In this document: positions 1 through 57,597 of the stretch, piece by piece
Layout: every line of letters begins with the position of its first letter
Position numbering within the stretch: the first letter of the stretch is position 1
NCBI GenBank assembly: GCA_035771165.1
Contig: JAWNZC010000316.1
Coordinates: 1-64,000 of the forward strand
From: Paragorgia papillata
Taxonomy: Eukaryota > Cnidaria > Anthozoa > Scleralcyonacea > Coralliidae
Length of the DNA stretch: 64,000 nucleotides
Direction: 5' to 3'
Notes under the pieces: generated by a model
The model's database searches: none
What the model saw: only the letters and a program-made list of their open reading frames with translations
What the model was told of the DNA's origin: nothing
Made by a program: the position numbers and the translations under genes

Positions 1-395
1 CGCAAATTATTTTTGCTTATCAGTTTCAATGGTTTTTAGTCGTAGCTGCTTTCAATCCCCGCTGCAACATCTTTTCTTAGCTTTATTTCTTCGGGTCCCT
101 TCGTTTCGATAGTATTTTATTGTGTACATTGTTAAACGTTTTGAGAAACGATTTCGTAATTCCAACTGAACCTTATATGTCTGTTATGATTTTGCTTACG
201 CCAATTTTAATAATCCTAGAATAATTTAAGAGGCTAGTTACCAAAGACCCCTTGCTGTGTAAACCGGGCAAGTGTGCGCGATTTGATGTATAAATATATA
301 TATATATATTCACTCGATAGCTGTCCCCACATCGCGGTTGTCACCAGAGCGATCGCATGTGTATAAATGTAATCTGGTGAAATTCAATTCAGATT

Positions 396-459
396 GTTCC
401 AAGCTACACTGAATGAGCTAGTTTGTACAGCGAAACCCCGTGTCTTGTAGACATTGAAC
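396..459 (+). ncRNA. Type I hammerhead ribozyme (copy 1, one core insertion)
   Basis: Order seen: GTTC (396-399), CTACA, core CTGAATGA (expected CTGATGA plus one inserted A), stem II G-C-T-(A)-G/CAGC with a TTTGTA loop, GAAA (432-435), a short stem III, and GTC cleavage triplet ending at 444. Then TGTAG pairs with CTACA and GAAC (456-459) pairs with GTTC, forming stem I around an internal loop. The inserted A matches the general insertion noise of this stretch. Cleavage activity is inferred from fold only. Confidence 0.68.
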
Positions 460-696
460 TATGTTACGCCTCCTATCACTTCCGGGTGTTGTTGGAGCAC
501 TCTGTGAAGTATGTCCGTGGGTACCTATTAGCGATAATGCAAAACGCTCACTCCCCTTGGTTGGAAGTTTGGAGCACTCTGGGCCCATGCGCACGTTCAC
601 CTATCTGAATGTAACTTCACCGAATGCTGTCACACATGCGGTTGTCATCCGAAACGATCGCATGTGTATAAGTAATTGGTGAAATTCATTCAGATT

Positions 697-763
697 GTTC
701 CAAGCTACCACTGATGAGCTTGTTGTTAACCAGCGAAACACCGTGTCCCTGTAGATTCGACAC
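697..763 (+). ncRNA. Type I hammerhead ribozyme (copy 2, intact core)
   Basis: CTGATGA is exact at 711-717 and CGAAAC follows at 733-738. The stem II strands GCTTG and CCAGC become GCTG/CAGC once the extra bases seen against copy 1 are discounted. The cleavage triplet GTC ends at 747, followed by CCTGTAG, which pairs with the CTAC before the core. The outer stem I (GTTC at 697-700 with GACAC near 759-763) is blurred by one base. Two copies with the same pairing but different indels support one ancestral ribozyme. Confidence 0.72.
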
Positions 764-792
764 TAATATATATATATATTTTTTTTATATTT

Positions 793-1874
793 ATTAGAAA
801 TAGAAAACATTTTCCGTGTTTTCTATAGAAACAAGCACACAGGGCGAGTGTTTCCACCACTATTACGAGTTCTTCCCAAACTTGCACAAGTGTTTTCTGT
901 AACTCTATAGGAACACGGGAAAAATGTTATTCTATATCCTTTTTATAAAATAACTCGTCAAAAAGATTAAAACGTTAAAATTAATCCAAATAAAAGGGCG
1001 TAAATTACTCATTACCCTCCATGGATGGGCGTATTAGGCATTGCGGTTTGAATGGCGTATAATATTGTTTCTTGTACAAATTTTTAATTAACGAGACGAT
1101 TTGGGGGCCCCGTATTGGATGGCGTAATCCATCCATGTTTTTTCCATAGAGTTATAGAAACACGGGCTTTTAACACATTGCCTTCACAAATTCATTAATA
1201 ATTCAAAGAACCGAAAACACCGAGACGGAATGTTTTTGAGATATCGTAGGAAGAAATTACAATAAGATTAAAGCCAGACTTTCGCCTACGATTTCATCTC
1301 TTAAAATACTGCTTTGTTTGAGAAGCTATATCATACACTCCGGAAGGAGTGTTTCATCAAGGAATATCCAAACACCTCGAAATTTTGTCCTCAATTGTTT
1401 AGGAATTCCTGATGAAAACACTCCTCCTCGTGTATGATATATAACATCGCATTGCATTGTTCCAAAATGATTAATTTTATAAATATCATATATTTAACAA
1501 ATATGTTTACGTTTTGTAGTAGATTGAAGAGTGTTATAACAATACTAGAAGTTTGGGTAGGAGCGAAATAACAGTTTGGAATCCTAAAATGTGAGTCGTT
1601 GCTACTCTGAGTATCCACCCCTCAACGTCTTGAGACAATCTTACAGGAACTGTAATGTGAATTGACTCAGTTCGTTGCGTGGATGACGCTAACGTCCATA
1701 CAATATTAAATTAATAGACATAATGTTTATATTATAACATGATGTTAGCGTCATCACACAACGAACAGAGGCCAATCACATACATGCAGCTGCCCTGAAA
1801 ATCGTCTCAAGTACGCGAGGCGTGAAACCTCAGAGTAATCAACGACTACATATCAAACTATATATATATATATA

Positions 1875-1921
<47 letters not shown>

Positions 1922-2562
1922 AAATGAACTAAAATGATTTTAATTTAGTCTCGAGATTCACGCCACTAGGCGATCATCAGACTAATTAACAGGCGTAAAA
2001 TATTATATCTCATGATGGCACTAGTAGCTAAGAATTTCGGACTTTTATTTAAAATAGAAGACTGTATCTGAATTAATTTAAAATGCAAAATGTTTTCTGC
2101 TAAGCACAAGTTGCAGGGCATTTGCTCCAGCTTTATACGCACTAAACTGCGCTTCAATGATTGACCCCAATTAATTCGGTAGATATTATCGCCACAACAA
2201 TACACGCCCATCATTCTAATTAAAATTTGTCCATGAAACACCAATTATAACGAAACGCCCATCCCACGTTATCAAAACGCCATACAATCTCGACATCCAT
2301 CGGACAGTAATGAAGAATTTACGCTTTTTATTTGCGTTAATATATTTAAAACGTTTAAATTTAATTTTTTGATGGGTTTATTTTATAAAGGAATTATAAA
2401 ATAACAGGTGTCCTATACGCATCCGCTCTGATTGGACGAGTACAGAGACACGTTTTTCCCCGTGTTCACTGGTCGATGTTATAGAAATACTTGTGGAAGT
2501 TTGGAAGAACTCGCGTATTGAAACAACGGAAAATGTTTTCTCTATTTCTTAAATACAAACAT
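793..2562. mobile_element. Long-TIR TTAA fold-back element B, unit 1 copy
   Basis: Composite element with inverted ends of about 320 bp starting AGAAATAGAAAACATTTTC and ending GAAAATGTTTTCTCTATTTCTTAA. The ends lie in TTAA or TTA contexts. The interior contains two further palindromes (about 1345-1435 and 1588-1858) and a (TA)n tract. Indel noise blurs this copy; unit 2 shows the structure best. No transposase frame is recognisable, so it is non-autonomous. Confidence 0.55.
1859..1921. repeat. (TA)n microsatellite
   Basis: Nearly pure TA dinucleotide tract inside element B. The same tract occurs at 18267, 34497 and 44052 with different lengths. Confidence 0.9.
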
Positions 2563-2797
2563 TTTCAAAGAGAATATCCCTTCCTACTCGAGTGTAATTT
2601 TGCGGGTAATTTTGGGCGTGTAAGTGGACTTCACGCGTGTCGAGATTACAACCCCTTCCCGGGTGCCGGGCCTTCGGCCATTCCCACCCGGGCCTCGGGG
2701 ATTAATATCTCGTAGTAAGAAGAGATAGCAAGTGAGAATATATAATAAGAGTACTCCCCAATAAACTGACCAGGGCATACAAAAACATAATGCTTAC

Positions 2798-3091
2798 TTC
2801 AAAATAATCCACTTCCAAAGTAACTGGAACCTGATGCCGAATTTCCATGAATTTTCCTTTTTCTTTTCTCGCAAATAATGACCCAAGACATTAAACTAAA
2901 TATCACTGAACCAATCCCTCTTAAATAAAACCATTAAGGGAACCAATACTGCTTATGCCATACATGGTGATACGTAGAAATCTTAAACAACCGTGTTTGA
3001 TTTTCTGGAAATTTGTAGGAGAAACAAGCCAGGCTTTGTCACCTCTTGATTTCGTTGGCGGAGGCAGACTTCAATGTTACAATGTAATAAC
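2798..3091 (-). CDS. MAM domain exon b (module 5, noisy)
   Basis: Minus-strand exon homologous to 19130-19389 and encoding the middle of a MAM domain (GYYMYIEVSSPR, SFYYHMYGSS, VYLRGIGS in the clean copies). The acceptor TTTTTTAG is just above 3091 and the donor GTAAGC just below 2798. Its length is 294 bp against 260 bp elsewhere, owing to scattered single-base insertions that break the frame. I attribute these to sequence error. The next exon (c) of this module lies beyond the left edge of the window. Confidence 0.7.
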
Positions 3092-3319
3092 CTAAAAAAT
3101 ATTAATTATTTACTTTTTTAATTTTATCATCACAGAACAATATTTGTTTTGTTTATGTACAAAGCATACAGCTATTTGAATAAACTTTAGGGCCGATCAC
3201 ATGAGGCGAGTTTGGGCAGTTATAAACAAGCTGATTCGTCTGATTAAGATCGTACTGTGGAATTTATTCAAATTCATGGTTATGGTTTTGCAGTCCCAGA
3301 GAAAGAAGTCGTGACACGA

Positions 3320-3490
3320 CCTTGTCCTGGTAAGCTTAGGACACCAACCCAGGCCCTGTAAACTAGGAACAGTCCAACCTGTAAGCTAGGACAGTCCAGC
3401 CTGTAAGCTAGGACAGCCCAGCCCTGTAAGCTAGGACAGGTCCGAGCCTGTAAAGCTAGAACAGCCCCAGCCATGTAAGATAGGACGGTT
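3320..3490. repeat. 22-bp minisatellite 2, unit 1
   Basis: About seven noisy copies of a 22-bp unit, CTGTAAGCTAGGACAGTCCAGC, written here as CTGTAAGCTAGG-ACAGTCCAGC. It lies in the intron after MAM exon a. Its period equals that of the larger minisatellite, but the sequences are unrelated. Confidence 0.85.
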
Positions 3491-3560
3491 CCTGGCTCAT
3501 GCTACGGTATATCCTTAGGCAAAGTTAACTGCAGATCTAGTAAGGCTAGCGATCTTTTCC

Positions 3561-3679
3561 TTTAAGCGCCTTGGCGCCCGGTAGAACTCTCTCTTCCGCC
3601 CTGGACTGAGTAAAATCGTCTGGCGTTAATAGCCCAGAGTAAAATAATAAAAGTCCGACAGTGGAAAGAAGTTCAAAGA
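3561..3679 (-). mobile_element. TTAAC-ended MITE (reverse orientation), unit 1
   Basis: Same family as 10661-10804 but inverted, showing GTCTGGCGTTAATAGCC, AATAATAAAAGTC and AAAGTTCAAAG. Terminal inverted sequence approximates TTTAACGCCTTGGCGCC. Short, non-coding, inside a MAM intron. Confidence 0.6.
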
Positions 3680-4603
3680 CCTTAAGAATTCATTACAAAT
3701 GTTAAAGCTTGCTGGCTTGTAACAAAAATACACGATGATGTTATACGATGACATAACGATGACGTTGGGTGGACTACAACTACTGCTTAGCAGTAATACT
3801 AGTGCTATTAAATAGAAGATAACTCGGAAAGCAATTTTGGGTGGTTGTAGTGATGTAGTCGCCCAACGCTATCAAAACGTCCATCGCCTGTGCAAATGGC
3901 CTATGTGACAATTAGACAACGAGGCCCAAGTGGACAACGGTAACGAGTTGTTTTTCCAAGGAAACCTTAGAAGAGCCACTCATTTTTTTACAGGCGCATG
4001 TAATTACATAGTCCAACTTCGAAATTCTTTGTTTCAAGCTCGTGAATTTCCTTCATCAATACTGGATGAGGTGTACCGTTACATTTAGTTTTATATCAAC
4101 ACATTCATGAGAGACCCAATTAGACTAAACGTCCCACATTTACTATTAATAATAATAAACCATCCGGCGATGCCTAGCAGGATTTGGCCACGACTGCTAA
4201 AAGAAAAATGAGTGATGTAAACCAAATGTTAACACATGAATTAGTCGCTTCTCTGGGTAAACCCTTGTCAAGATTGTTGCCAAAGCTAAATTCATCTTTT
4301 ATATTTAACCTTGTTTTTAACCCTCCCAAAACTTAAGGGATAACAATTTGTCTTTGCGCGTGTGTCCCATGACTTTTGTTTTATTTCTTCGAGGTCCAGT
4401 TCGGCTGACACATTGTAATTACAAAGCTAATGGAAGGCATTTTAGGGTTATTAGTGGTTAAAATGCCCACTCAAGCCTCGGGAGGGTTTGTGGAAGTTCG
4501 CTCGTGAATTCCACTGCATTTACTTATAACAACAGTTGTAGTAAATTATTTTTAATTTACAGTTTGGATCATTGGCAAGATAAGCCAATAATATAAGTAT
4601 TAC

Positions 4604-4772
4604 CTGACAACCTACTACCAGTTTGTATGGTCCGCCATATTGGTACCTGATAACACTGCTTGGGGTAACTTCCATTAAGTCTTGTCCAATCAAAGTTGTC
4701 TCCACTAGATATGTTTCTCCACTGCGCATAAACCAAACATTTCAATAGTCGCACGAAAACTGAAGCTGTAAC
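4604..4772 (-). CDS. MAM domain exon a (module 5, noisy)
   Basis: Homologue of 46532-46684 (153 bp), here about 169 bp because of inserted bases. Fragments of the expected protein are visible ([13 protein letters not shown]). The donor GTAATA and acceptor TTCACAG positions are conserved. The exon would encode the first part of a MAM domain. The real frame cannot be judged in this error-rich stretch. Confidence 0.65.
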
Positions 4773-5521
4773 CTGTGAATGACATTTTATTGTTAGTTTT
4801 GCTCATTTTTATGATCAGATTAATTAAGAGCAGCAACGACTCCAAACTCAACTTTTTTATCGCAAATTTTATTGAAATAATAATTTACATTCCGTATTAG
4901 TACATAAGTTCTTTTAGTCTTGGGCTGATTTAGTTCCATCCGTACTGTAGATCTGAGGAGCTTACGAGGAAAACAAAAGAAAATGTCGCGTGAAAGAGAC
5001 ACGTGCTAATTGCCCATAGTTGTGGGCAGTGGATCGCCCTCGCGAGTGATACGCTTCAGAAGGGAACAAACATGACGAGTATACGCGAGGTGAGGTTGAC
5101 TTGAGATGAAAATGGCTGTGTCACCGGTAGGGGGTAGCCTATTTGTGAGATAGTACTGTATTGCCCACTTTACCTCCCTGTCTAATATCGTATTCTGTGA
5201 CGTCCGTTTAGCCAATTAACGAACGTTGGCAATAACATCAAGGTAAACAAAGATGATGACTATCTGAGAAGAAGTTTTGAATCACTGATTTTAAAGAACA
5301 AACTATTGAAAAATACAGCAGTAATATTTTTTGTATCAAATTAATATTAACGACGAGAACGTTTTGGCGTTGCGATTGTTTATCTTATCTATTTATTTAT
5401 TTAACTGTCAACGTTTGTAGGCGTGACGGACAATTAAAATTTGCAGAATTACACGACTATCAGAATTTATTTTCATTTTACATGTTGGAATTTTTTAAGT
5501 GCATCAAACGAAATTTCTTAC

Positions 5522-7417: not shown

Positions 7418-10136
7418 GAACTCGGCAATGGCTACAAACATTTCTACAACGGTAACAAACAGGGCAAGAACGGTGTGGGAATAATTTTGTGCGAGAGCTG
7501 GAAAAGGAATGTGGTTGAAGTACAGAGAACATCAGACAAACTGATGTTAGTGAAGGTGACAACAGAGAGTGGACTACTCAACGTCATATCTGCCTACGCC
7601 CCACAAGTTGGATGTAGTGAAGAAGAGAAGGAGCAGTTCAGAGAGGAACTCGAGGATCTGGTGTGGAGTGTCCCTAGAGAAGAAGACTTGGTGATTGGAG
7701 GTGACTTGAACGCGCACGTGGGAGAAGAAGCCGATGGTTACGAGGAGTGCCACAGAGGATGGGGTTACGGCCAGAGAAACATCGAAGGAGAACGGATCTT
7801 AGAGATGGCAGAGAGCCTGGAACTATTCATTACCAACACGGGGTTTCAGAAAAGTGAAGAACACAGAGTCACCTATAAGAGTGGTCCAGACTGCACACAG
7901 ATTGATTTCATTCTGGTTAGGAAACAGAACGGAAAAGACGTTACGAAGGTGATACCCGGCGAGGCGGCAGCTCACCAACATCGACTGCTAGTGATGGATA
8001 TGCGGAGGAAGAAGAAGATGACCATGAAGTCCAGGAAAAGAACCTCAGAAGATCAAAGTCTGGAAGCTGGAAGGAGAGAAGAAGACGGAGTATGTAGAGG
8101 AAGTTTCCAGAGAAATGGACAACTTCGAAGTACAGACTGTGAAAGAGTACTGGCAAAAATTGAAGAATACCGTATTGAGAGTAGCAACAGAAAAATGTGG
8201 AAAGACTTCAGGAAGAATGCGGAAAGACCAAGAAACCTGGTGGTGGAGAGAAGATACCCAGCAAGCCATCAAGAACAAGAAGAGTGCCTTCAAGGAATGG
8301 CAAAAAAAAACAAGACAGCGGAGTCGAAAGTCCAGTATAAAGAAGCAAAGAAAGAGGCAAAGAGGGCGGTGGCAAAAGCAAGAGAGGAAACAACAAAGGA
8401 CTGGTACCAGAAACTAGACACGAAGGAGGGAGAGATAACTATCTACAAAGTCGCAAAGGCAAGACAGAAAATGAAGGAAGACATCGGGGAAGTAATCGTG
8501 ATCAGAGACAAAGATGGAAGAATACTATCTCAACCAGAAGATGTGAAGAGACGGTGGAGAGAGTATTTCAACAGTCTACTAAATGAGGAGAACCCGCATC
8601 AGGAGCTGGAGGATATGCCACCTGTGGAGGGACCAGTAACAGACATCATGAAACTGGAGGTGAAGACAGCGCTGAAGGGAATGAAGAAAGGCAAGGCAGG
8701 AGGGCCTTCAGAAGTAACCGTGGAGATGTTAAAAGCCCTAGGAGAGAGGGGGGAGGAGGAGTATACTTACCGTCTCCTCAGCCTAGTCTGGGAGCAAGAA
8801 GAGATTCCGGAACACTGGAGAAGGAGCCTGATCATACCGATCTTCAAAAAGAAAGGAGATGTTTTACAAGGAAGCAACTACAGGGGAATCAAGTTACTGG
8901 AACACATGTTGAAGATTTTTGAGAAGATATTAGACAAAAGACTGAGACAGGTAGTGGAAATTGATGATATGCAATTTGGTTTCCGACCAAACAGGGGAAC
9001 AACAGATGCCATCTTCGTATTGCGGCAGTTACAAGAGAAGACCTTGGAAGGGCAAAAGAGACTGTTCCATGCCTTTGTGGACCTCGAGAAGGCATACGAT
9101 CGTGTGCCCCGAGAGCTAGTTTGGTGGTGCCTGAGAAGAAAGGTGTGCCAGAGAAGCTGGTACGGCTAGTGCAATGCACGTATGAAGCGGCGAGCACCGT
9201 GGTAAGAACGCCACATGGAGACTCTGATAGCTTTCAGATAGGAGTAGAGCTGCACCAGGGCTCGGCATTGAGTCCTCTACTCTTCATAGTCGTCCTGGAT
9301 GGCATAACTGAGGCATGTAGAGACGGAATCCCTTCAGAGACGCTCTATGCAGACGATTTAGCGTTGTTTAAAAACGGCGGAGAAGAAACTGGAAAAAAAG
9401 TTAATGAGTTGGCAAACAACATTAGAAGCCAAAGGCTTGAAGGTGAACACAGAGAAAACCGAAGTAATGATTAGTTCGAGAACGACAAAACCCAAGCTTA
9501 ATATTAAAGAGATGCAAGGTATCCGGTTAAACCAAGTCAAGGATTTCAAGTATCTTGGGGACGTGATCCAAGAAGACGGCGGCTGTGAGAAAGTTGTGCG
9601 GGCACGAGTGCAAGCTGCTTGGCAGAAATGGAGGGACTTCTCAAGTGTGATTTGTGACAGGAAGTTACTAGATAGGCTGAAGACCAAGATATACAGAACA
9701 GTGATAAGACCGGTGCTAATGTACGGTGCAGAGACCTGGCCCCTAAAAAGAAAGGAGGAACTTATACTTATAAGAACAGAGATGAGAATGCTACGTTGGG
9801 CGCAGGGCATGTACCTGAGAAAGAAAAAAAGACCAATGAAACAGTGAGAGAGATGGCAGAAGTAGAATGTATTGAAGAGAAACTACGAGACGTCCGTCTA
9901 CAATGGTATGGACACGTATACAGAAGAAAGGAAGATCATCCATTGAGAAGAATGGTGGACATGCCAATCCCAGGAAAAAGGAAAAGAGGAAGACCACACA
10001 AGAGATGGGAAGACACAGTAAAAGAAGATATGAAACGAAGGAATATGACAAATGAAGATGTCAACGACAGAGCCCAATGGCGACGAAAGCTCCTCTCCAG
10101 GCCGACCTCATAAGGGATAAGGTCCAGAAGAAGAAG
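7418..10136 (+). mobile_element. RTE-like non-LTR retrotransposon, 5'-truncated, unit 1 copy
   Basis: Begins abruptly at GAACTCGG, where the endonuclease frame (ELGNGYKHFYNG) opens mid-domain, and ends in a short AAG tract (CCAGAAGAAGAAG). A truncated 5' end and a short 3' tandem repeat are typical of RTE-clade LINEs. Order: endonuclease remainder, linker, reverse transcriptase, then a C-terminal region with RLQWYGHVYRR-like and RGRPHKRWEDTVKEDM motifs. RTE is chosen on the C-terminal motifs, GLHQGSALSPLLF-type residues and the 3' end. Clade assignment needs a tree. Confidence 0.8.
7475..10113 (+). pseudogene. Endonuclease-reverse transcriptase remnant, unit 1
   Basis: The APE-like endonuclease keeps VIGGDLNAHVG, SGPDCTQIDFILV and a final HRLLVMDM (HxxL in place of the usual SDH). 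The reverse transcriptase keeps FGFRPNRGTTDA, AFVDLEKAYDRVP, SALSPLLF and the catalytic YADD (9346-9357). Relative to the other copies there is a +1 shift near 8041, a nine-A run at 8302-8310 (eight elsewhere), a 1-nt loss near 9140 and an extra T near 9366. A further frame break in the A-rich run at 9821-9833 is shared by all three copies, so the element was probably dead before the segment duplicated. The first stop-free block runs 7475-9169. Confidence 0.75.
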
Positions 10137-10804: not shown

Positions 10805-10960
10805 TACGAATATAAATATGCACGAAAAAGCTATGCTTTTATAAGTTGCGCATTTTAAAATGCTTCGAGGCACTTTTTCCAGGTTCAAATAGCGTCAAAC
10901 GTACCTTTAGAAGAATACATATGTACACGAGCTGTATGTTTAAATTGCTTTAGACATAAC

Positions 10961-13072
10961 ACCATACTATCTGCATTACAACACCATGCTATCTGCATTG
11001 CAACATCATACTATCTGCATTAGAACATCACACTATCTGCATTACAACATCATGCATGCTGTCTGAATTACAACACCACACTATCTGCATTGCAACATCA
11101 TACTATCTGCATTACAACATATCATACTATCTGCGTTACAACATCACACTATCTGCATTGCAACACCATACTATCTGCATTACAACACCATGCTATCTGC
11201 ATTACAACACCATGCTATCTGCATTGCAACACCATACTTATCTGCATTACAACATCATAGTATCTGCATTACAACATCATACGATCTGCATTGCAACATC
11301 ATACTATCTGCATTACAACACCATACTATCTGCATTACAACATCATACTATCTGCATTACAACATCATAGTATCTGCATTACAACACCATACTATCTGCA
11401 TTACAACACCATACTATTATCTACATTACAACACCATACTATCTGCATTACAACATCATAGTATCTGCATTACAACATCATAGTATCTGCATTACAACAT
11501 CATACTATCTGCATTACAACACCATACTATCTGCATTACAACATCATACTATCTGCATTACAACACCATACTATCTGCGTTGCAACACCATACTATCTGC
11601 ATTACAACACCATACTATCTGCATTACAACACCATACTATCTGCATTACAACACCATACTATTATCTACATTACAACACCATACTATCTGCATTACAATA
11701 CCATACTATCTGCATTACAACACCATACTATCTGCATTACAACACCATACTATCTGCATTACAACATCATAGTATCTGCATTACAACATCAAACTATCTG
11801 CATTGCAACATCATACTATCTGCATTACAACACCATACTATCTGCATTACAACATCATACTATCTGCATTACAACATCATACTATCTGCATTACAACACC
11901 ATACTATCTGCATTACAACATCATACTATCTGCGTTGCAACACCATACTATGTGCATTACAACATCACACTATCTGCATTACAACATCATACTATCTGCA
12001 TTACAACATCACACTATCTGCATTACAACATCATACTATCTGCATTACAACATCATACTATCTGCATTACAACACCATACTATCTGCATTACAACACCAT
12101 ACTATCTGCATTACAACACCATACTATCTGCATTACAACATCACACGATCTGCATTACAACATCATACTATCTGCATTACAACATCACACTATCTGCATT
12201 ACAACATCATACTATCTGCATTACAACATCATACTATCTGCATTACAGCACCATACTATCTGCATTACAACACCATACTATCTGCATTACAACATCATAC
12301 TATCTGCATTACAACATCATACTATCTGCATTGCAACATCATACTATCTGCATTACAACACCATACTATCTGCATTACAACATCATACTATCTGCATTAC
12401 AACATCATACTATCTGCATTACAACATAATACTATCTGCATTACAACATCACACTATCTGCATTGCAACACCATACTATCTGCATTACAACACCATACTA
12501 TCTGCATTACAACACCATACTATCTGCATTACAACATCATAGTATCTGCATTACAACATCATACTATCTACATTACAACACCATACTATCTGCATTACAA
12601 CACAAATTAACTATTATCTACATTACAACACCATACTATCTGCATTACAATACCATACTATCTGCATTACAACACCATACTATCTGCATTACAACACCAT
12701 ACTATCTGCATTACAACATCATAGTATCTGCATTACAACATCATACTATCTGCATTGCAACATCATACTATCTGCATTACAACATCATACTATCTGCATT
12801 ACAACACCATACTATCTGCATTACAACATCATACTATCTGCATTACAACATCATAGTATCTGCATTACAACACCATACTATCTGCATTACAACATCACAC
12901 TATCTGCATTACAACATCATACTATCTGCATTACAACACCATACTATCTGCATTACAACATCACACTATCTGCATTACAGCATCATACTATCTGCATTAG
13001 AACATCATACTATCTGCATTGCAACATCATACTATCTGCATTACAACACCATACTATCTGTATTACAACATT
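10961..13072. repeat. 22-bp minisatellite 1, unit 1 (about 96 copies)
   Basis: Tandem array of ACTATCTGCATT-ACAACAYCAT (22 bp) with scattered variants (GCATTG, CGATC, TGCGTT). Twenty-two is not a multiple of three and no phase contains a plus-strand stop, so all three forward frames stay open and give a 22-residue repeating protein (motifs such as HHTICITT). I regard those frames as non-coding. The array lies in the intron between MAM exon c and the EGF exon of the host gene. Confidence 0.95.
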
Positions 13073-16880: not shown

Positions 16881-17689
16881 CGCAAATTATTTTTGCTTCA
16901 GTTTCAATGGTTTTTAGTCGTGCTGCTTCATCCCGCTGCAACATCTTTCCTTAGCTTTATTTCTTCGGTCTTTTTCGATAGTATTTGTTGTGTACATTTT
17001 AAACGTTGAAACGATTTCGTAATCCAACTGAACTTATATGTCTGTTATGATTTGCTTACGTCAATTTTAATAATCTAAATAATTTAAGAGGCTAGTTACC
17101 AATACCCTGCTGTGTAAACCGGGCAAGTGTGCGCGATTTGATGTATATATATATATATATTAAAGAAATAGAAAACATTTTCCGTGTTTCTATAGAAAAC
17201 ACGAGTGGAATTACAGTGGGAACACGAGCACGCAGGGCGAGTGTTTCCACACTATTTCGAGTTCTTCCAAACTTCCACAAGTGTTTCTATAACTCTATAG
17301 GAACATGGGGAAAATGTTTTCTATATCCTTTATAAAATAACTCGTCAAAATAGATTAAACGTTAAAATTAATCCAAATAAAAGGCGTAAATTCTCATTAC
17401 CCTCCATGGATGGCGTATTGGATTGCGTTTGATGGCGTATAATAGTGTTTTCTGTACAAATTTTAATTAGAACGATGGCGTATTGGATGGCGTAATCCAT
17501 CCATGTTTCCCATAGAGTTATAGAAACACGGCTTTTAACCATTCATCCAAAACTCACTAATAATTCATGAAGAAAACACAAAGGAAATCAGTACCGTGTC
17601 GGTGTTTCGATATCGGGGGAAGAAGTTACATAAATTAAGCAAACTTTCATCTTGATTTTCTCTTAAAATACTGATTTGTTTTAGATGCT

Positions 17690-18267: not shown

Positions 18268-18302
<35 letters not shown>
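18267..18302. repeat. (TA)n microsatellite
   Basis: TA tract immediately right of the long palindrome in element B. Confidence 0.9.
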
Positions 18303-18308
<6 letters not shown>

Positions 18309-19129
18309 AACTAAAATGTTTTATTTACTCGAGTTTCACGCACTAGGCGATCATCAGACTAAAAGGTGATTAAAATCTAAGGAGGTTTCATATTACAGGC
18401 GTAAAATTTATTCTCATGATGGCACTTAGCTAAGAATTCGGACTTTTATTTAAAATAGAAGACTTATCTGAATTAATTTTAAATGCAATTTTTTTCTGCT
18501 AAGCACAAGTTGCAGTGCTTTGCTCCAGCTTTATACGCACTAACGCGCTTAATGATTGACCAATTAATTGGTAGATATTACGCCACACAATACGCCATCA
18601 TTCTAATTAAATTTTGTACAGAAACACCATTATACGCCATCCACGTTATCAAACGCCATACAATTCGACATCCATGGACAGTAATGAGAATTTACGCTTT
18701 TTATTTGCGTTAATATTTTAACGTTTAATTTATTTTTGACGGGTTATTTTATAAAGGAATTATAAAATAACAGGTGTCCTATACGCACGCTCTGATTGGA
18801 CGAGTACAGAGACACGTTTTCCCGTGTTCCTGTCGAGTTATAGAAATACTTGTGGAAGTTTGGAAGAACTCGTATTGAAACACGGAAAATGTTTTCTATT
18901 CCTTAAATACAAACATTTTCAAAGAATATCCTTCCTACTCGAGTGTAATTTTGCGGGTAATTTGCGTGTAAGTGGACTTCACGCGTGTCGAGATTACACC
19001 CTTCCCGGGTGCCGGGCCTTCGGCCTTCCACCCGGGCTCGGGGATTAATATCTCGTAGTAAGAAGAGATAGCAAGTGAGAATATATAATAGAGTACTAAA
19101 CTGACCGGGCATCAAAACATAATGCTTAC

Positions 19130-19389
19130 TTCAAAATCCACTTCCAAAGTAACTGGAACTGATGCGAATTTCCATGAATTTCCTTTTTCTCCAAATAATG
19201 ACCAAACATTAACTAAATTCACTGAACCAATCCCTCTTAAATAAACATTAAGGGAACCAATACTGCTTCCATACATGTGATAGTAGAAACTTAAACAACG
19301 TGTTTGATTTCTGGAAATTGTAGGAGAAACAAGCCAGGCTTTGTCACCTCTTGTTCTTGGCGAGGAGACTTCAATGTACATGTAATAAC
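19130..19389 (-). CDS. MAM domain exon b (module 4)
   Basis: A 260-bp exon, phase 1 to 0, between acceptor ATTTTTTAG and donor GTAAGC. It encodes GYYMYIEVSSPRTRGDKAWL, SPTISRNQTRCLSFYYHMYG, SLNVYLRGIGS and VTLEVDFE, the central MAM segment with its third conserved Cys and the Tyr-His-Met-x-Gly motif. It joins exon a upstream (SSS-G) and exon c downstream (DFE-IIFEGV) in frame. An open frame continues past the acceptor into the intron but has no MAM similarity there. Units 3 and 4 encode essentially the same residues. Confidence 0.88.
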
Positions 19390-19601
19390 CTAAAAAATAA
19401 TTATTTACTTTTTTAATTTTATCATCACAACAATATTTGTTTTGTTTATGTACATGCATACAGCTTGAATAAACTTTAGGGCCGATCACATGAGGCGAGT
19501 TGGCAGTTATAACCAGGCTGATTCGTCTGATTAAGATCGTACTGTGGAATTTATTCAAATCTTGTTTTGCAGCCAGAGAAAGAAGTCGTGACACGACCTT
19601 G

Positions 19602-19757
19602 TCTGTAAGCTAGGACAACCCAGCCTGTAAACTAGGACAGTCCAACCTGTAAGCTAGGACAGTCCAGCCTGTAAGCTAGGACAGCCCAGCCCTGTAAGCT
19701 AGGACAGTCCAGCCTGTAAGCTAGAACAGCCCAGCATGTAAGATAGGACGGTCCTGG
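19602..19757. repeat. 22-bp minisatellite 2, unit 2 (about 7 copies)
   Basis: Unit CTGTAAGCTAGG-ACAGTCCAGC with CCAACC and CCCAGC variants. Unit 4 carries the same number; unit 3 has about fifteen. Confidence 0.92.
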
Positions 19758-23520: not shown

Positions 23521-26236
23521 GAACTCGGCAATGGCTACAAACATTTCTACAACGGTAACAAACAGGGCAAGAACGGTGTGGGAATAATTTTGTGCGAGAG
23601 CTGGAAAAGGAATGTGGTTGAAGTACAGAGAACATCAGACAAACTGATGTTAGTGAAGGTGACAACAGAGAGTGGACTACTCAACGTCATATCTGCCTAC
23701 GCCCCACAAGTTGGATGTAGTGAAGAAGAGAAGGAGCAGTTTCAGAGAGGAACTCGAGGATCTGGTGTGGAGTGTCCCTAGAGAAGAAGACTTGGTGATT
23801 GGAGGTGACTTGAACGCGCACGTTGGAGAAGAAGCCGATGGTTACGAGGAGTGCCACGGAGGATGGGGTTACGGCCAGAGAAACATCGAAGGAGAACGGA
23901 TCTTAGAGATGGCAGAGAGCCTGGAACTATTCATTACCAACACGGGGTTTCAGAAAAGTGAAGAACACAGAGTCACCTATAAGAGTGGTCCAGACTGCAC
24001 ACAGATTGATTTCATTCTGGTTAGGAAACAGAACAGAAAAGACGTTACGAACGCTAAGGTGATACCCGGCGAGGCGGCAGCTCACCAACATCGACTGCTA
24101 GTGATGGATATGCGGAGGAAGAAGAAGATGACCATGAAGTCCAGGAAAAGACCCCAGAAGATCAAAGTCTGGAAGCTGGAAGGAGAGAAGAACACGGAGT
24201 ATGTAGAGGAAGTTTCCAGAGAAATGCACAACTTCGAAGTACAGACTGTGAAAGAGTACTGGGAAAAATTGAAGAATACCATATTGAGAGTAGCAACAGA
24301 AAAATGTGGAAAGACTTCAGGAAGAATGCGGAAAGACCAAGAAACCTGGTGGTGGAGAGAAGATACCCAGCAAGCCATCAAGAACAAGAAGAGTGCCTTC
24401 AAGGTATGGCAAAAAAAACAAGACAGCGGAGTCGAAAGTCCAGTATAAAAAAGCAAAGAAAGAGGCAAAGAGGGCGGTGGCAAAAGCAAGAGAGGAAACA
24501 ACAAAGGACTGGTACCAGAAACTAGACACGAAGGAGGGAGAGATAACTATCTACAAAGTCGCAAAGGCAAGACAGAAAATGAAGGAAGACATCGGGGAAG
24601 TAATCGTGATCAGAGACAAAGATGGAAGAATACTATCTCAACCAGAAGATGTGAAGAGACGGTGGAGAGAGTATTTCAACAGTCTACTAAATGAGGAGAA
24701 CCCGCATCAGGAGCTGGAGGATATGCCACCTGTGGAGGGACCAGTAACAGACATCATGAAACTGGAGGTGAAGACAGCGCTGAAGGGAATGAAGAAAGGC
24801 AAGGCAGAAGGGCCTTCAGAAGTAACAGTGGAGATGTTAAAAGCCCTAGGAGAGAGGGGGGAGGAGGAGTATACTTACCGTCTCCTCAGCCTAGTCTGGG
24901 AGCAAGAAGAGATTCCGGAAGACTGGAGAAGGAGCCTGATCATACCGATCTTCAAAAAGAAAGGAGATGTTTTACAAGGAAGCAACTACAGGGGAATCAA
25001 GTTACTGGAACACATGTTGAAGATTTTTGAGAAGATATTAGACAAAAGACTGAGACAGGTAGTGGAAATTGATGATATGCAATTTGGTTTCCGACCAAAC
25101 AGGGGAACAACAGATGCCATCTTCGTATTGCGGCAGTTACAAGAGAAGACCTTGGAAGGGCAAAAGAGACTGTTCCATGCCTTTGTGGACCTCGAGAAGG
25201 CATACGATCGTGTGCCCCGAGAACTAGTTTGGTGGTGCCTGAGGAAGAAAAGTGTGCCAGAGAAGCTGGTACGGCTAGTGCAATGCACGTATGAAGCGGC
25301 GAGAACCGTGGTAAGATCGCCACATGGAGACTCTGATAGCTTTCAGATAGGAGTAGGGCTGCACCAGGGCTCGGCATTGAGTCCTCTACTCTTCATAGTC
25401 GTCCTGGATGGCATAACTGAGGCATGTAGAGACGGAATCCCTTCAGAGACGCTCTATGCAGACGATTTAGCGTTGTCAAAAACGGCGGAGAAGAAACTGG
25501 AAAAAAAGTTAATGAGTTGGCAAACAACATTAGAAGCCAAAGGCTTGAAGGTGAACACAGAGAAAACCGAAGTAATGATTAGTTCGAGAACGACAAAACC
25601 CAAGCTTAATATTAAAGAGATGCATGGTACCCGGTTAAACCAAGTCAAGGATTTCAAGTATCTTGGGGACGTGATCCAAGAAGACGGCGGCTGTGAGAAA
25701 GTTGTGCGGGCACGAGTGCAAGCAGAAATGGAGGGACTTCTCAAGTGTGATTTGTGACAGGAAGTTACTAGATAGGCTGAAGACCAAGATATACAGAACA
25801 GTGATAAGACCGTTGCTAATGTACGGTGCAGAGACCTGGCCCCTAAAAAGAAAGAAGGAACTTATACTTATAAGAACAGAGATGAGAATGCTACGTTGGG
25901 CGCAGGGCATGTCCCTGAGAGAGAAAAAAAGACCAATGAAACAGTGAGAGAGATGGCAGAAGTAGAATGTATTGAAGAGAAACTACGAGACGTCCGTCTA
26001 CAATGGTATGGACACGTATACAGAAGAAAGGAAGATCATCCATTGAGAAGAGTGGTGGACATGCCAATCCCAGGAAAAAGGAAAAGAGGAAGACCACACA
26101 AGAGATGGGAAGACACAGTAAAAGAAGATATGAAACGAAGGAATATGACAAATGAAGATGTCAACGACAGAGCCCAATGGCGACGAAAGCTCCTCTCCAG
26201 GCCGACCGCATAAGGGATAAGGTCCAGAAGAAGAAG
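23521..26236 (+). mobile_element. RTE-like non-LTR retrotransposon, 5'-truncated, unit 2 copy
   Basis: Same truncation point and same AAG-rich 3' end as the unit 1 copy. This shows one insertion copied by segmental duplication rather than three retrotransposition events. Size 2716 bp. Confidence 0.82.
23578..26213 (+). pseudogene. Endonuclease-reverse transcriptase remnant, unit 2
   Basis: The endonuclease is broken near 23740 by an extra T (CAGTTTCAG for CAGTTCAG) and again at the eight-A run 24411-24418. The next frame then reads through linker and reverse transcriptase to 25757. Catalytic YADD sits at 25455-25466. An 8-nt deletion near 25723 (AGCAGAAATGG where others have AGCTGCTTGGCAGAAATGG) ends that frame. 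The final C-terminal block (VREMAEVECIEEKL to LLSRPTA) lies in a third frame, after the A-rich run at about 25923. Confidence 0.78.
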
Positions 26237-27374: not shown

Positions 27375-27530
27375 TACGAATATAAATATGCACGAAAAAG
27401 CTATGCTTTTATAAGTTGCGCATTTTAAAATGCTTCGAGGCACTTTTTCCAGGTTCAAATAGCGTCAAACGTACCTTTAGAAGAATACATATGTACACGA
27501 GCTGTATGTTTAAATTGCTTTAGACATAAC

Positions 27531-28972
27531 ACCATACTATCTGAATTACAACACCATGCTATCTGCATTGCAACATCATACTATCTGCATTAGAACATCA
27601 CACGATCTGCGTTACAACATCACACTATCTGCATTGCAACACCATACTATCTGCATTACAACACCATGCTATCTGCATTACAACACCATGCTATCTGCAT
27701 TACAACACCATACTTATCTGCATTACAACATCATAGTATCTGCATTACAACATCATAGTATCTGCATTACAACATCATACTATCTGCATTACAACATCAT
27801 ACTATCTGCATTGCAACATCATACTATCTGCATTACAACATCATACGATCTGCGTTACAACATCACACTATCTGCATTGCAACACCATACTATCTGCATT
27901 ACAACACCATGCTATCTGCATTACAACATCATGCATGCTGTCTGAATTACAACACCATACTATCTGCATTGCAACATCATACTATCTGCATTACAACATC
28001 ATACGATCTGCGTTACAACATCACACTATCTGCATTGCAACACCATACTATCTGCATTACAACACCATGCTATCTGCATTACAACACCATGCTATCTGCA
28101 TTACAACACCATACTTATCTGCATTACAACATCATAGTATCTGCATTACAACATCATAGTATCTGCATTACAACATCATACTATCTGCATTACAACATCA
28201 TACTATCTGCATTGCAACATCATACTATCTGCATTACAACATCATACGATCTGCGTTACAACATCACACTATCTGCATTGCAACACCATACTATCTGCAT
28301 TACAACACCATGCTATCTGCATTACAACACCATGCTATCTGCATTACAACACCATACTTATCTGCATTACAACACCATACTATCTGCATTGCAACATCAT
28401 AGTATCTGCATTACAACACCATACTATCTGCATTACAACACCATACTATCTGCATTACAACACCATACTATCTGCATTACAACACCATACTATCTGCATT
28501 ACAACATCACACTATCTGCATTACAGCATCATACTATTATCTACATTACAACACCATACTATCTGCATTACAACACCATACTATCTGCATTACAACATCA
28601 TACTATCTGCATTACAACACCATGCTATCTGCATTACAACACCATACTATCTGCATTACAACATCATAGTATCTGCATTACAACATCATACTATCTGCAT
28701 TGCAACATCATACTATCTGCATTACAACACCATACTATCTGCATTACAACATCATACTATCTGCGTTGCAACACCATACTATCTGCATTACAACACCATA
28801 CTATCTGCATTACAACATCACACTATCTGCATTACAACATCATACTATCTGCATTACAACATCATACTATCTGCATTACAACATCATACTATCTGCATTA
28901 CAACACCATACTATCTGCATTACAACATCACACTATCTGCATTACAACACCATACTATCTGTATTACAACAT
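27531..28972. repeat. 22-bp minisatellite 1, unit 2 (about 65 copies)
   Basis: Same 22-bp unit as at 10961. It has internal higher-order structure: the variant string around TACTTATCTG recurs at 27711, 28112 and 28355, the first two 401 bp apart, indicating local duplications of multi-unit blocks. Confidence 0.95.

Positions 28973-32924: not shown

Positions 32925-32935
<11 letters not shown>

Positions 32936-32962
<27 letters not shown>
32936..32962. repeat. (TA)n microsatellite
   Basis: TA tract left of the hairpin insertion in unit 3. At the equivalent place unit 1 carries the hammerhead repeats. Confidence 0.88.
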
Positions 32963-32965
<3 letters not shown>

Positions 32966-33160
32966 AAGTATAAAGTATAGTTTTACCTTAAAGTCTTCGC
33001 TACCAGAGGTTTCACCCTAAGTCGCCTGATGATCCCGTTTAGGGTGAAACCTCTGGTAGCGAAGACTTTAAGGTAAAACTATACTTTATACTTTGTATTT
33101 TGCTCTATCTATATATGGTATTGAGCACTCTCTAACATTTCGTGAACCATAAGTCACTTA
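32963..33160. mobile_element. (TA)n-inserted hairpin element, unit 3
   Basis: Arms of about 58 bp (ACAAAGTATAAAGTATAG ... CTATACTTTATACTTTGT) around TCGCCTGATGATCCCG, followed by about 60 bp (TATTTTGCTCTATCTATA to CATAAGTCACT), then another TA tract. The same element sits in a different TA tract in unit 4 (43501-43690). Confidence 0.7.
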
Positions 33161-33180
33161 TATATATATATATATATATT

Positions 33181-33470
33181 TCTAAAATTCATTAATAATT
33201 CATGAGGAAAACACAAAGAAAAATCATGAGCGTATCGGATCTATATATGTGATATAGACTCGCTCTAAGTTTCTCGCTGGTTTTTAACGGCTGAGATAAG
33301 CTTAATTTTCAAAATTACTACGCCAATGAACGTATGAAGTGATTCTGTTTAGAAGCCATTTAAAAACCTTGCAGTACGGGCTTTATCGGCTCTAAAACAC
33401 TCGGCTATCGCCTCGTGTTTTATATCCGATAAAGCCCTCCTGCGCGGTTTATAAATATTACATATATATT
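33181..33470. repeat. Unit 3-specific palindromic insertion
   Basis: Absent from the other units. Contains the inverted pair GGGCTTTATCGG / CCGATAAAGCCC around ACACTCGGCTATCGCCTCGTGT, again bordered by TA-rich sequence. No coding content. Confidence 0.6.
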
Positions 33471-33477
33471 CTTATAT

Positions 33478-35091: not shown

Positions 35092-35319
35092 ATACAAACA
35101 TTTTCAAAGAATATCCTTCCTACTCGAGTGTAATTTTGCGGGTAATTTGCGTGTAAGTGGACTTCACGCGTGTCGAGATTACACCCTTTCCCGGTTCCGG
35201 GCCTTCGGCCTTCCACCCGGGCTCGGGGATTAAGATCTCGTAGTAAGAAGAGATAGCAAGTGAGAATATATAATAGAGTGCTCCCAATAAACTGACCGGG
35301 CTTAAAAAATAATGCTTAC

Positions 35320-35579
35320 TTCAAAATCCACTTCCAAAGTAACTGGAACTGATGCGAATTTCCATGAATTTCCTTTTTCTCCAAATAATGACCAAACATT
35401 AACTAAATTCACTGAACCAATCCCTCTTAAATAAACATTAAGGGAACCAATACTGCTTCCATACATGTGATAGTAGAAACTTAAACAACGTGTTTGATTT
35501 CTGGAAATTGTAGGAGAAACAAGCCAGGCTTTGTCACCTCTTGTTCTTGGCGAGGAGACTTCAATGTACATGTAATAAC
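35320..35579 (-). CDS. MAM domain exon b (module 3)
   Basis: 260 bp, phase 1-0, same splice signals and same encoded motifs (YMYIEVSSPR, RCLSFYYHMYG, VYLRGIGS) as 19130-19389. Frame is intact. In transcript order it lies between exon a at 39329 and exon c at 30802, so this module has a complete three-exon MAM domain. Confidence 0.88.
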
Positions 35580-35785
35580 CTAAAAAATAATTATTTACTT
35601 TTTTAATTTTACAACAATATTTGTTTTGTTTATGTACATGCATACAGCTTGAATAAACTTTAGGGCCGATCACATGAGGCGAGTTGGCGGTTATAACCAG
35701 GCTGATTCGTCTGATTAAGATCGTACTGTGGAATTTATTCAAATCTCTTTTTGCAGCCAGAGAAAGAAGTCGAAACACGACCTTG

Positions 35786-36112
35786 CCTGTAAGCTAGGAC
35801 AGCCCAGCCTGTAAACTAGGACAGTCCAACCTGTAAGCTAGGACGGTCCAGCCTGTAAGCTAGCACAGTCCAACCTGTAAACTAGGACAGTCCAGCCTGT
35901 AAACTAGGACAGTCCAACCTGTAAACTAGGACAGCCCAGCCTGTAAGCTAGCACAGTCCAACCTGTAAGCTAGGACAGCCCAGCCTGTAAACTAGGACAG
36001 TCCAACCTGTAAACTAGGACAGTCCAGCCTGTAAGGTAGGACAGCCCAGGCCTGTAAGCTAGGACAGTCCAGCCTGTAAGCTAGAACAGCCCAGCATGTA
36101 AGCTAAGACGGT
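35786..36112. repeat. 22-bp minisatellite 2, unit 3 (about 15 copies)
   Basis: Expanded array of CTGTAAGCTAGG-ACAGTCCAGC with alternating TCCAACC and CCCAGCC variants, twice the length found in units 2 and 4. Confidence 0.93.
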
Positions 36113-42539: not shown

Positions 42540-42742
42540 CTTTATTTCTTCGGTCTTTTTCGATAGTATTTGTTGTGTACATTTTAAACGTTGAAACGAT
42601 TTCGTAATCCAACTGAACTTATATGTCTGTTATGATTTGCTTACGTCAATTTTAATAATCTAAATAATTTAAGAGGCTAGTTACCAATACCCTGCTGTGT
42701 AAACCGGGCAAGTGTGCGCGATTTGATGTATATATATATATA

Positions 42743-43444
42743 TTAAAGAAATAGAAAACATTTTCCGTGTTTCTATAGAAACACGAGTGGAATTACAGTG
42801 GGAACACGAGCACGCAGGGCGAGTGTTTCCACACTATTTCGAGTTCTTCCAAACTTCCACAAGTGTTTCTATAACTCTATAGGAACACGGGAAAAATGTT
42901 TTCTATATCCTTTATAAAATAACTCGTCAAAATAGATTAAACGTTAAAATTAATCCAAATAAAAGGCGTAAATTCTCATTACCCTCCATGGATGGCGTAT
43001 TGGATTGCGTTTGATGGCGTATAATAGTGTTTCTGTACAAATTTTAATTAGAACGATGGCGTATTGGATGGCGTAATCCATCCATGTTTCCCATAGAGTT
43101 ATAGAAACACGGCTTTTAACCATTCATCCAAAACTCATTAATAATTCATGAAGAAAACACAAAGGAAATCAGTACCGTGTCGGTGTTTGGATATCGGGGG
43201 AAGAAGTTACATAAATTAAGCAAACTTTCATCTTGATTTTCTCTTAAAATACTGATTTGTTTTAGATGCTACATCAAACACTCGGAGGAGTGTTTCATCA
43301 GGATATCCAAACACCTCGAAGTTTGTTCAAAAACCTCGGCTTCGCCTCGGTTTTCAACAAACGTCTCGGTGTTTGGATATCCTGATGAAACACGCCTCCT
43401 CGTGTTTGATATATTACATCGCTTGCTTGTTCAAAATGTTATTT

Positions 43445-44683: not shown

Positions 44684-44906
44684 ATACAAACATTTTCAAA
44701 GAATATCCTTCCTACTCGAGTGTAATTTTGCGGGTAATTTGCGTGTAAGTGGACTTCACGCGTGTCGAGATTACACCCTTCCCGGGTGCCGGGCCTTCGG
44801 CCTTCCACCCGGGCACGGGGATTACGATCTCGTAGTAAGAAGAGATAGCAAGTGAGAATATATAATAGAGTACTAAACTGACCGGGCATCAAAACATAAT
44901 GCTTAC

Positions 44907-45166
44907 TTCAAAATCCACTTCCAAAGTAACTGGAACTGATGCGAATTTCCATGAATTTCCTTTTTCTCCAAATAATGACCAAACATTAACTAAATTCACT
45001 GAACCAATCCCTCTTAAATAAACATTAAGGGAACCAATACTGCTTCCATACATGTGATAGTAGAAACTTAAACAACGTGTTTGATTTCTGGAAATTGTAG
45101 GAGAAACAAGCCAGGCTTTGTCACCTCTTGTTCTTGGCGAGGAGACTTCAATGTACATGTAATAAC
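44907..45166 (-). CDS. MAM domain exon b (module 2)
   Basis: 260 bp, phase 1-0, same splice signals and residues as module 4 exon b (KAWLVSPTISRNQTRC, YYHMYGSSIGS, FGEKGNSWKFASVPV). Intact frame between exon a at 46532 and exon c at 40475. Confidence 0.88.
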
Positions 45167-45378
45167 CTAAAAAATAATTATTTACTTTTTTAATTTTATC
45201 ATCACAACAATATTTGTTTTGTTTATGTACATGCATACAGCTTGAATAAACTTTAGGGCCGATCACATGAGGCGAGTTGGCAGTTATAACCAGGCTGATT
45301 CGTCTGATTAAGATCGTACTGTGGAATTTATTCAAATCTTGTTTTGCAGCCAGAGAAAGAAGTCGTGACACGACCTTG

Positions 45379-45533
45379 TCTGTAAGCTAGGACAACCCAG
45401 CCTGTAAACTAGGACAGTCCAACCTGTAAGCTAGGACAGTCCAGCCTGTAAGCTAGGACAGCCCAGCCCTGTAAGCTAGGACAGTCCAGCCTGTAAGCTA
45501 GAACAGCCCAGCATGTAAGATAGGACGGTCCTG
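45379..45533. repeat. 22-bp minisatellite 2, unit 4 (about 7 copies)
   Basis: Same variant order as in unit 2, supporting recent common origin of units 2 and 4 here. Confidence 0.92.
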
Positions 45534-53146: not shown

Positions 53147-53300
53147 TACGAATATAAATATGCACGAAAAAGCTATGCTTTTATAAGTTGCGCATTTTAA
53201 AATGCTTCGAGGCACTTTTTCCAGGTTCAAATAGCGTCAAACGTACCTTTAGAAGAATACATATGTACACGAGCTGTATGTTTAAATTGCTTTAGACATA

Positions 53301-56300: not shown

Positions 56301-57597
56301 CAACACCATACTATCTGCATTACAACACCATACTATCTGCATTGCAACATCATACTATCTGCATTGCAACACCATACTATCTGCATTACAACATCATAGT
56401 ATCTGCATTACAACATCATACTATCTGCATTGCAACATCATACTATCTACATTACAACATCATACTATCTGCATTACAACACCATACTATCTGCATTACA
56501 ACATCATACTATCTGCATTACAACATCACACTATCTGCATTACAACATCATACTATCTGCATTACAACACCATACTATCTGCATTACAACATCATACTAT
56601 CTGCATTGCAACATCACACTATCTGCATTACAACACCATACTATCTGCATTACAACATCATACTATCTGCATTGCAACATCATACTATCTACATTACAAC
56701 ATCATACTATCTGCATTACAACACCATACTATCTGCATTACAACATCATACTATCTGCATTACAACATCACACTATCTGCATTACAACATCATACTATCT
56801 GCATTACAACACCATACTATCTGCATTACAACATCATACTATCTGCATTGCAACACCATACTATCTGCATTACAACATCATACTATCTGCATTACAACAT
56901 CATACTATCTGCATTACAACACCATACTATCTGCATTACAACACCATACTATCTGGATTACAACATCATACTATCTGCATTACAACATCATACTATCTGC
57001 ATTACAACATCATACTATCTGCATTACAACACCATGCTATCTGCATTACAACATCATACTATCTGCATTACAACATCATACTATCTGCATTACAACACCA
57101 TACTATCTGCATTACAACATCATACTATCTGCATTACAACATCATACTATCTGCATTACAACATCATAGTATCTGCATTACAACACCATACTATCTACAT
57201 TACAACACCATACTATCTGCATTACAACACCATACTATTATCTACATTACAACACCATACTATCTGCATTACAATACCATACTATCTGCATTACAACACC
57301 ATGCTATCTGCATTATAACACCATACTATCTGCATTACAACATCATAGTATCTGCATTACAACACCATACTATCTGCATTGCAACATCATACTATCTGCA
57401 TTACAACACCATACTATCTGCATTACAACATCATACTATCTGCGTTGCAACACCATACTATCTGCATTACAACATCACACTATCTGCATTACAACATCAT
57501 ACTATCTGCATTACAACACCATACTATCTGCATTACAACATCACACTATCTGCATTACAGCATCATACTATCTGCATTAGAACATCATACTATCTGC
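53301..57597. repeat. 22-bp minisatellite 1, unit 4 (about 195 copies)
   Basis: Largest array, with the same first and last variants as unit 1. It consists mainly of two near-identical 1897-bp blocks (53394-55290 and 55291-57187). The few units after the hAT-like insertion (58687-58745) are its displaced right end. Apparent frames of up to 465 codons are artefacts of the stop-free period. Confidence 0.95.
53394..57187. repeat. 1897-bp higher-order duplication inside the minisatellite
   Basis: The marker ATGCATGCTGTCTGAATTAC occurs at 53394 and 55291. Variant order is the same in both blocks, with only about one difference noticed (a TCATAC/TCACAC change seen as Tyr/His in the virtual translation). 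1897 is not a multiple of 22. Confidence 0.9.

Follow-up and report, generated by a model that had tools for sequence, protein, structure and literature searches.

The window, meaning the whole 64,000-nt stretch of Paragorgia papillata DNA analysed here, opens contig C316, and four paralogous units lie within it. The first of these, unit 1, carries an element in which two direct copies (309-451 and 616-755; 83.8% identity over 148 columns by BLAST within the window) flank a part that occurs once. A sequence-only reading had placed type I hammerheads in tandem within a retrozyme-like element that sits in a (TA)n tract, and this description is upheld: the two direct copies are present, (TA)n lies on both sides, and the GAAA and GTC motifs, with cleavage positions (as positions) after 444 and 747, are correctly placed. 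The BLAST matches listed for the window include no further retrozyme copy, the lowest of them being short TA matches. The element and its insertion site comprise the following features.

1..5000: contig start left unpolished; relative to the paralogous units, 52-77 extra-base events in each kb
289..308: 5' (TA)n; where units 2 and 4 lack the element, the tract is uninterrupted
309..765 (+): very probable retrozyme insertion of 1.5 units (repeat, unique part, repeat); clean copy at L013:2825-3238; about 6% spurious extra bases in the stretch
396..459 (+): first type I hammerhead (copy 1); distal stem I formed by GTTC 396-399 and GAAC 456-459; core at 409-416 with an extra A; mismatch in stem III
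444..445 (+): predicted self-cleavage point of copy 1, at the GTC position; activity presumed
539..552 (+): stretch matching GCAACGCTCAC, near which the 5' ends of other insertions recur
613..686 (+): hairpin ahead of hammerhead copy 2; arms 613-645 / 654-686, 73% complementary
697..763 (+): second type I hammerhead (copy 2), with CTGATGA at 711-717, GAAA at 735-738 and GTC ending at 747; RF00163 match at 705-754
747..748 (+): predicted self-cleavage point of copy 2, at the GTC position; activity presumed
766..779: 3' (TA)n, adjoining the fixed end of the element, which reads GAACTA in clean copies
17105..17180 (+): empty target site in unit 2, an uninterrupted TA tract
32930..33475 (+): same site in unit 3, with a different insert that begins with a fold-back element
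42690..42760 (+): empty target site in unit 4, an uninterrupted TA tract

The element had been held to be confined to unit 1. This is correct within the window, where units 2 and 4 are empty, but the same insertion is also found at the same site at C316:106.8 kb and C440:3.463 Mb. The two window hammerheads are not equally regular. CTGATGA had been assigned to each copy and is present in copy 2, whereas the core of copy 1 reads CTGAATGA (409-416). Stem II, given as GCTG/CAGC, has extra letters in both window copies (GCTAG.. and GCTTG..) and takes that form in the clean copy described below; extra letters also stand beside the cleavage site.

Two other kinds of feature recur among the units.

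10958-13071, 27528-28972 and 53300-57597: arrays of a 22-bp satellite (AACATCATACTATCTGCATTAC), 65-195 copies
19112-19609 (-), 35302-35793 (-) and 44889-45386 (-): similar ORFs in three units

The ORF at 35302-35793 (-) contains a MAM domain, and the sole named relative of that at 44889-45386 (-), among 6 matches, is from the clam Mya arenaria.

Read error and the clean hammerhead unit

Up to about position 5000, unit 1 shows 52-77 extra-base and 0-10 missing-base events per kb relative to units 2, 3 and 4; past this point extra-base events fall abruptly, to 2-6 per kb; between units 2 and 4 the figure is about 3 per kb or fewer. Because the excess is confined to the first ~5 kb, the indels between the window copies are attributed to read error. 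The argument that indels at different places with preserved pairing prove the fold is therefore withdrawn, since indels that arise from reading rather than from evolution give a hammerhead fold no support. An end-to-end alignment of positions 1-3500 with a clean segment elsewhere on C316 has 39 mismatches and 214 gap openings. In pairs of reads of one sequence simulated with such error rates, mismatches average 2.9-4.0 and gap events 12.5-13.9 (sd ~3), and window copies 1 and 2 show 5 mismatches and 17 gap events; the two copies may thus be identical in their true sequence.

Insertion-type errors give three contig ends an unpolished look: window 1-5000, L042:883-3868 (the end of C312) and L047 (the start of C112). 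Over the last ~3 kb of the C312 array, extra-base events rise from 1-2 to 13-20 per 277-bp unit. Caution is warranted more generally, as support for an RNA fold that is drawn from indels fails where contig ends are unpolished.

The true sequence is settled by clean genomic copies. The clean counterpart of the window element (L013, C316:104000-110000; element at 2825-3238) has the same flanks and carries two identical, complete hammerheads. Stem I consists of a distal part (GTTC/GAAC), an internal loop (CAAG/ATT) and a proximal part (CTACA/TGTAG); the core CTGATGA is followed by stem II (GCTG-TTGTA-CAGC), GAAA and stem III (ACA-CCG-TGT), with cleavage predicted after GTC. The core expected of a type I hammerhead (CUGAUGA, GAAA and U-H at the cleavage site) is found in the clean copy, in the 4,261 exact copies counted below and in window copy 2, and the clean copy allows three helices with stem I open-ended. 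After cleavage, the hydroxyl end of the RNA would stand at UGUAGAUU. The clean period is 276-277 bp and the cleavage points lie 276 bp apart; the period of ~302 bp deduced from the window was inflated by read error, and the predicted RNA shrinks from ~303 to 276 nt.

Sixteen base pairs were drawn by hand on the clean copy. Of 434 copies from 35 loci (L013-L047; BLAST matches covering less than 50 nt of the 66-nt ribozyme reference were dropped), 304 retain every one of the 12 core positions and the 16 pairs, and 275 of these 304 lack indels. Covariation among the 434 copies (104 distinct sequences) is essentially nil, with 2 two-sided changes, and the core is no better conserved (1.38 changes per 100 nt) than paired (1.26) or other (1.06) positions. 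Absence of constraint on the core is as expected for copies that decay after insertion, and is no proof of function.

Covariance models, proposed at the outset as a check that could refute the element, gave a mixed outcome: matches fell below the gathering score throughout the stretches searched, in the window and in clean sequence alike. The Rfam model Hammerhead_1 (RF00163) scores 21.4 bits on copy 2 searched alone (gathering 34; E 0.0024 for 91 nt x 4,227 families); it gives no match to copy 1 searched alone, and there is no hammerhead match at E<=10 in window 1-1200. The best match on clean sequence is to RF02275 (18.3 bits versus gathering 52, E 0.015). A descriptor that demands the core, at least 3 bp in each of stems II and III and at least 4 bp in stem I has a single fit in the window, at copy 2, while any fit arose in 8 of 400 dinucleotide shuffles of the window. 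In the isolated 58-mer, the hammerhead fold (-7.9 kcal/mol) lies 2.9 kcal/mol above the minimum-energy fold (-10.8).

The 276-nt unit has a GC content of 47.1% and is non-coding: the longest stop-free run in the repeated unit is 91 codons on the minus strand and 40 on the plus strand. Folded as a circle, it is strongly self-paired (z -5.5 for this strand, -2.9 for the other). This modelled fold speaks for a structured RNA and would say nothing for cleavage.

Copy number and insertion junctions

Exact matches to the 43-nt ribozyme, bounded on both sides by proximal stem I, number 4,261 (1,834 + 2,427) in the 617,864,297-bp genome, against 0 for the backward control, so that the prospect of an element without other genomic copies is massively contradicted. 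The 3' end of the element reads GTAGATTGAACTA followed by TATATA. With at most one mismatch, this end is fused to (TA)n at 1,660 + 1,715 = 3,375 places genome-wide (backward control, 1). Among loci picked by similarity of the element body, all 23 dispersed 3' ends run into TA and 21 of the 23 read GAACTATAT, the deviating ones being L029:2333 and L047. The 23 are not fully independent: L013 and L014, and likewise L020, L021 and L026, have common flanks and are probably shared sites. Locus mapping left out matches of <75% identity or <40 bp, together with 56-59-bp opposite-strand rows in which the hairpin matches its own complement. Junctions inside the C312 stretches L038-L041 are exceptions to the TA-fused 3' end.

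The family also forms long arrays of the 277-bp unit, throughout C286:1-50000 and over much of the parts of C312 examined, and multi-unit loci with the common 3' end (L044, 2,164 bp; L046, >3,800 bp; both chosen by body similarity). Inverted segments occur within the C312 array (L039:3112-4417 and L041:5441-6749). Outside this genome, an 18-mer was matched at 3 places in viral contigs and a 20-mer at 1 prokaryote place, all of which look unrelated beyond the match. The long arrays, like a core that is not conserved among copies, would suit a DNA-level satellite, spread by recombination or by reinsertion of extrachromosomal circles, whose hammerhead-like stretch is decayed or due to chance. Such an origin is very improbable, as 3,375 places with one 3' end and scattered sampled 5' ends are not a recombination product and the core with all 16 pairs persists in 304 of 434 copies.

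Forty junctions were taken from the first 100 listed 3'-end places, on contigs C1, C2, C3, C4, C6 and C9, and were therefore sampled by their 3' end. This end is fixed 14 nt past the cleavage point, two bases beyond the base of stem I, and the 5' ends are scattered over the unit. The cleavage point is crossed in 39 of the 40 inserts; the remaining one, L070, consists of exactly the 14 nt that lie between this point and the 3' end, as a template cut here would give. Thirty inserts are no longer than one unit and ten are longer, two of these running off the examined stretch (the length of another locus, L062, is 648 or 367 depending on how its pieces are chained). Nine of the 38 closed 5' ends fall within 11 nt of one another (offsets 203-213), around GCAACGCTCAC, which could be a transcription start or a strong reverse-transcriptase stop. 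The matching stretch in the window is 539-552, and ends around GCAACGCTCAC recur at L018, L020-L022, L032, L044, L053, L056, L077, L079, L080, L082 and L083.

At 25 of the 40 loci, TA repeats stand within the final 12 nt of the 5' flank. The other 15 have no TATATA or ATATAT there, so the TA could just as well be a 3'-added tail as a target. TA tails measure 9-65 nt (38 loci). No target-site duplication beyond TA was detectable, with 5 of 38 loci positive versus 12% of mismatched pairs; 2 of the 40 loci, open at their 5' edge, were left out of this test. At L032:424-2230, two retrozyme copies lie tail to tail around one common (TA)n, as if the tail of one copy had been the target of the next on the opposite strand, and L015:1248-2042 has the same GAACTA-(TA)n-TAGTTC junction.

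Template, priming and helper enzyme

The insertion at 309-765 very probably represents an abundant family of non-LTR retrozymes, with a 276-277-bp non-coding unit and one canonical type I hammerhead, copied from a circular or oligomeric template. The sequence, copy number, junctions and empty sites of this family are matters of observation; cleavage, circles, priming and the helper enzyme belong to the following proposed pathway. Transcripts of two or more units would cut themselves after GUC, and the 276-nt pieces would be ligated into circles, by analogy with known animal retrozymes. A borrowed reverse transcriptase would begin within the circle, or within an uncleaved oligomer, just beyond the base of stem I (...GAACUA), primed by the TA-rich 3' end of the nicked target, with which the last element bases could pair. 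Copying would run over the intact cleavage junction and halt at a variable distance, so that the 3' end would be fixed and joined to (TA)n, the 5' ends would scatter and some inserts would hold more than one unit.

A fixed 3' end combined with variable 5' ends, a TA target or tail and multimers is the signature of target-primed reverse transcription. As the element ends 14 nt downstream of the cleavage point, the inserts must cross an uncut or religated junction, and a linear self-cleaved monomer is therefore not the usual template. These junctions fit a circle or an uncleaved oligomer as the usual template, copied by target-primed reverse transcription; the single case of L070 matches a remnant of a template cut at the ribozyme site. 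Which RNA form of animal retrozymes is copied, and by which enzyme, is an open question in the field, and the 3' end shared by 3,375 places, with 39 of 40 sampled inserts crossing the cleavage point, argues against the cleaved linear monomer as the usual template while offering an exact priming site. It is also conceivable, if rather unlikely, that stem I (GUUC/GAAC) doubles as a recognition hairpin placing the start of reverse transcription two bases on. The ribozyme would then serve as a 3' tail signal too and (TA)n tracts as both target and primer, each (TA)n tail becoming the landing site of the next copy, on either strand (as at L032 and L015).

The same element might instead travel as a SINE-like passenger of uncleaved linear transcripts, its hammerhead playing no role in transposition and its arrays arising later by DNA recombination. 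This is a serious possibility that stops somewhat short of probable. It agrees with a 3' end 14 nt past the cleavage site and uncut crossing in 39 of 40 sampled inserts, with the 30 of 40 that do not exceed one unit, and with the recurrent 5' end at GCAACGCTCAC (9 of 38 closed ends) as a possible transcription start. It accords less well with the 10 of 40 that exceed one unit and with L070, which begins exactly at the cleavage point; the multi-unit loci L044 and L046 are simply explained by a circle, though transcripts of arrays would explain them too. In a lizard Penelope-like element, hammerhead mutants are reported to have no effect on insertion in vitro (PMC11167929), which favours the passenger and calls for caution about a ribozyme role in insertion itself.

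For the helper, the window holds one candidate class, a LINE with endonuclease and reverse transcriptase whose frame is split over several ORFs in three units.

7418-10113: LINE of unit 1
23663-26213: LINE paralogue
49294-51986: LINE paralogue

The endonuclease match of the first LINE copy is slightly below the Pfam cut-off. Fish names are commonest among the 120 protein relatives listed, with one sea slug (scoring was limited to the 8,000 candidates with the most words in common). The sequence GAAGAAGAAG lies shortly past the last LINE ORF of unit 1. A fixed 3' end, a short-repeat tail and 5' truncation are LINE-like traits, and these, with a LINE at hand in the window, make a LINE rather than a Penelope-like element a possible but somewhat doubtful helper. 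No (TA)n follows the reading frame of the window LINE up to position 10980, and a Penelope-like enzyme is reported to start inside its RNA and to prefer AT-rich DNA (PMC11167929). Some other repeats here also point, if weakly, to the Penelope side, through hammerhead-like cores (CTGATGA..GAAA or CTGACGA..CGAAACGTT) that precede (TA)n and were noted at 7 places in other repeat families.

18357 (-), 34572 (-), 44134 (-) and 33026 (+): hammerhead-like cores in the window
L022:1159 (+), L029:2793 (+) and L016:2073 (-): hammerhead-like cores at other loci

Several of the 7 are copies of one family, and eight altered-core controls gave 0-5 places each. A looser hammerhead descriptor was present in 23 of 300 window shuffles, and Rfam gave no hammerhead match at window 18290-18390. 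Judged by sequence, these cores bear a faint resemblance to minimal Penelope-type hammerheads.

Relation to known mobile elements

SINEs have a fixed 3' end, a short-repeat tail, 5' truncation and a borrowed enzyme. The coral element shares the first three and would share the fourth; its hammerhead and its occurrence in multimers set it apart. Penelope-like elements with minimal type I hammerheads are described as sharing tandem or partial-tandem copies and the hammerhead, and their reported internal start of reverse transcription and preference for AT-rich DNA match the junctions found here (PMC11167929, PMC7761336). In contrast to those descriptions, the 276-nt unit has no long ORF, and hence no frame for the reverse transcriptase and GIY-YIG endonuclease of that class, and its hammerhead has a stem III and a distal stem I instead of the minimal form. 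Plant LTR retrozymes (PMC4918200), as described in PMC7229834 and PMC7761336, share tandem hammerheads and a circular RNA intermediate, which is presumed for the coral element. In those descriptions the hammerheads are of type III and lie in LTRs, the units measure ~700 bp and the target-site duplications 4 bp. The coral element has a type I arrangement, a 277-bp unit and no duplication seen beyond TA; because its 5' ends scatter, it has no fixed LTR pair.

In animal retrozymes, circles have been proposed as the template of LINE or Penelope enzymes, with Penelope-like elements put forward as a strong candidate (PMC7229834). No mention of (TA)n-fused, 5'-truncated anatomy was met in the consulted portions of PMC7229834 or PMC7761336, and the word 'microsatellite' is absent from the main text of the former. 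Among the further papers listed by searches of a mostly open-access literature, none reports it by title or abstract opening, which is no claim that it is unpublished. The closest relatives are the metazoan non-LTR retrozymes of coral, mussel and axolotl (Cervera and de la Pena 2020, PMC7229834), which are described as having a type I hammerhead, tandem copies, GC below 50%, a unit of ~170-400 nt, strongly self-paired RNA and thousands of copies, all in common with the present family. The latter consists of tandem 276-277-bp units with a type I hammerhead, from 1.5-mers to long arrays, with GC below 50% and no coding capacity. It departs from that description in that most sampled insertions are 5'-truncated and have one 3' end fused to (TA)n, the end by which they were sampled. 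From its sequence, the window element is thus best regarded as a newly found member of a class already known, the metazoan non-LTR retrozymes, with predicted self-cleavage and predicted RNA circles.
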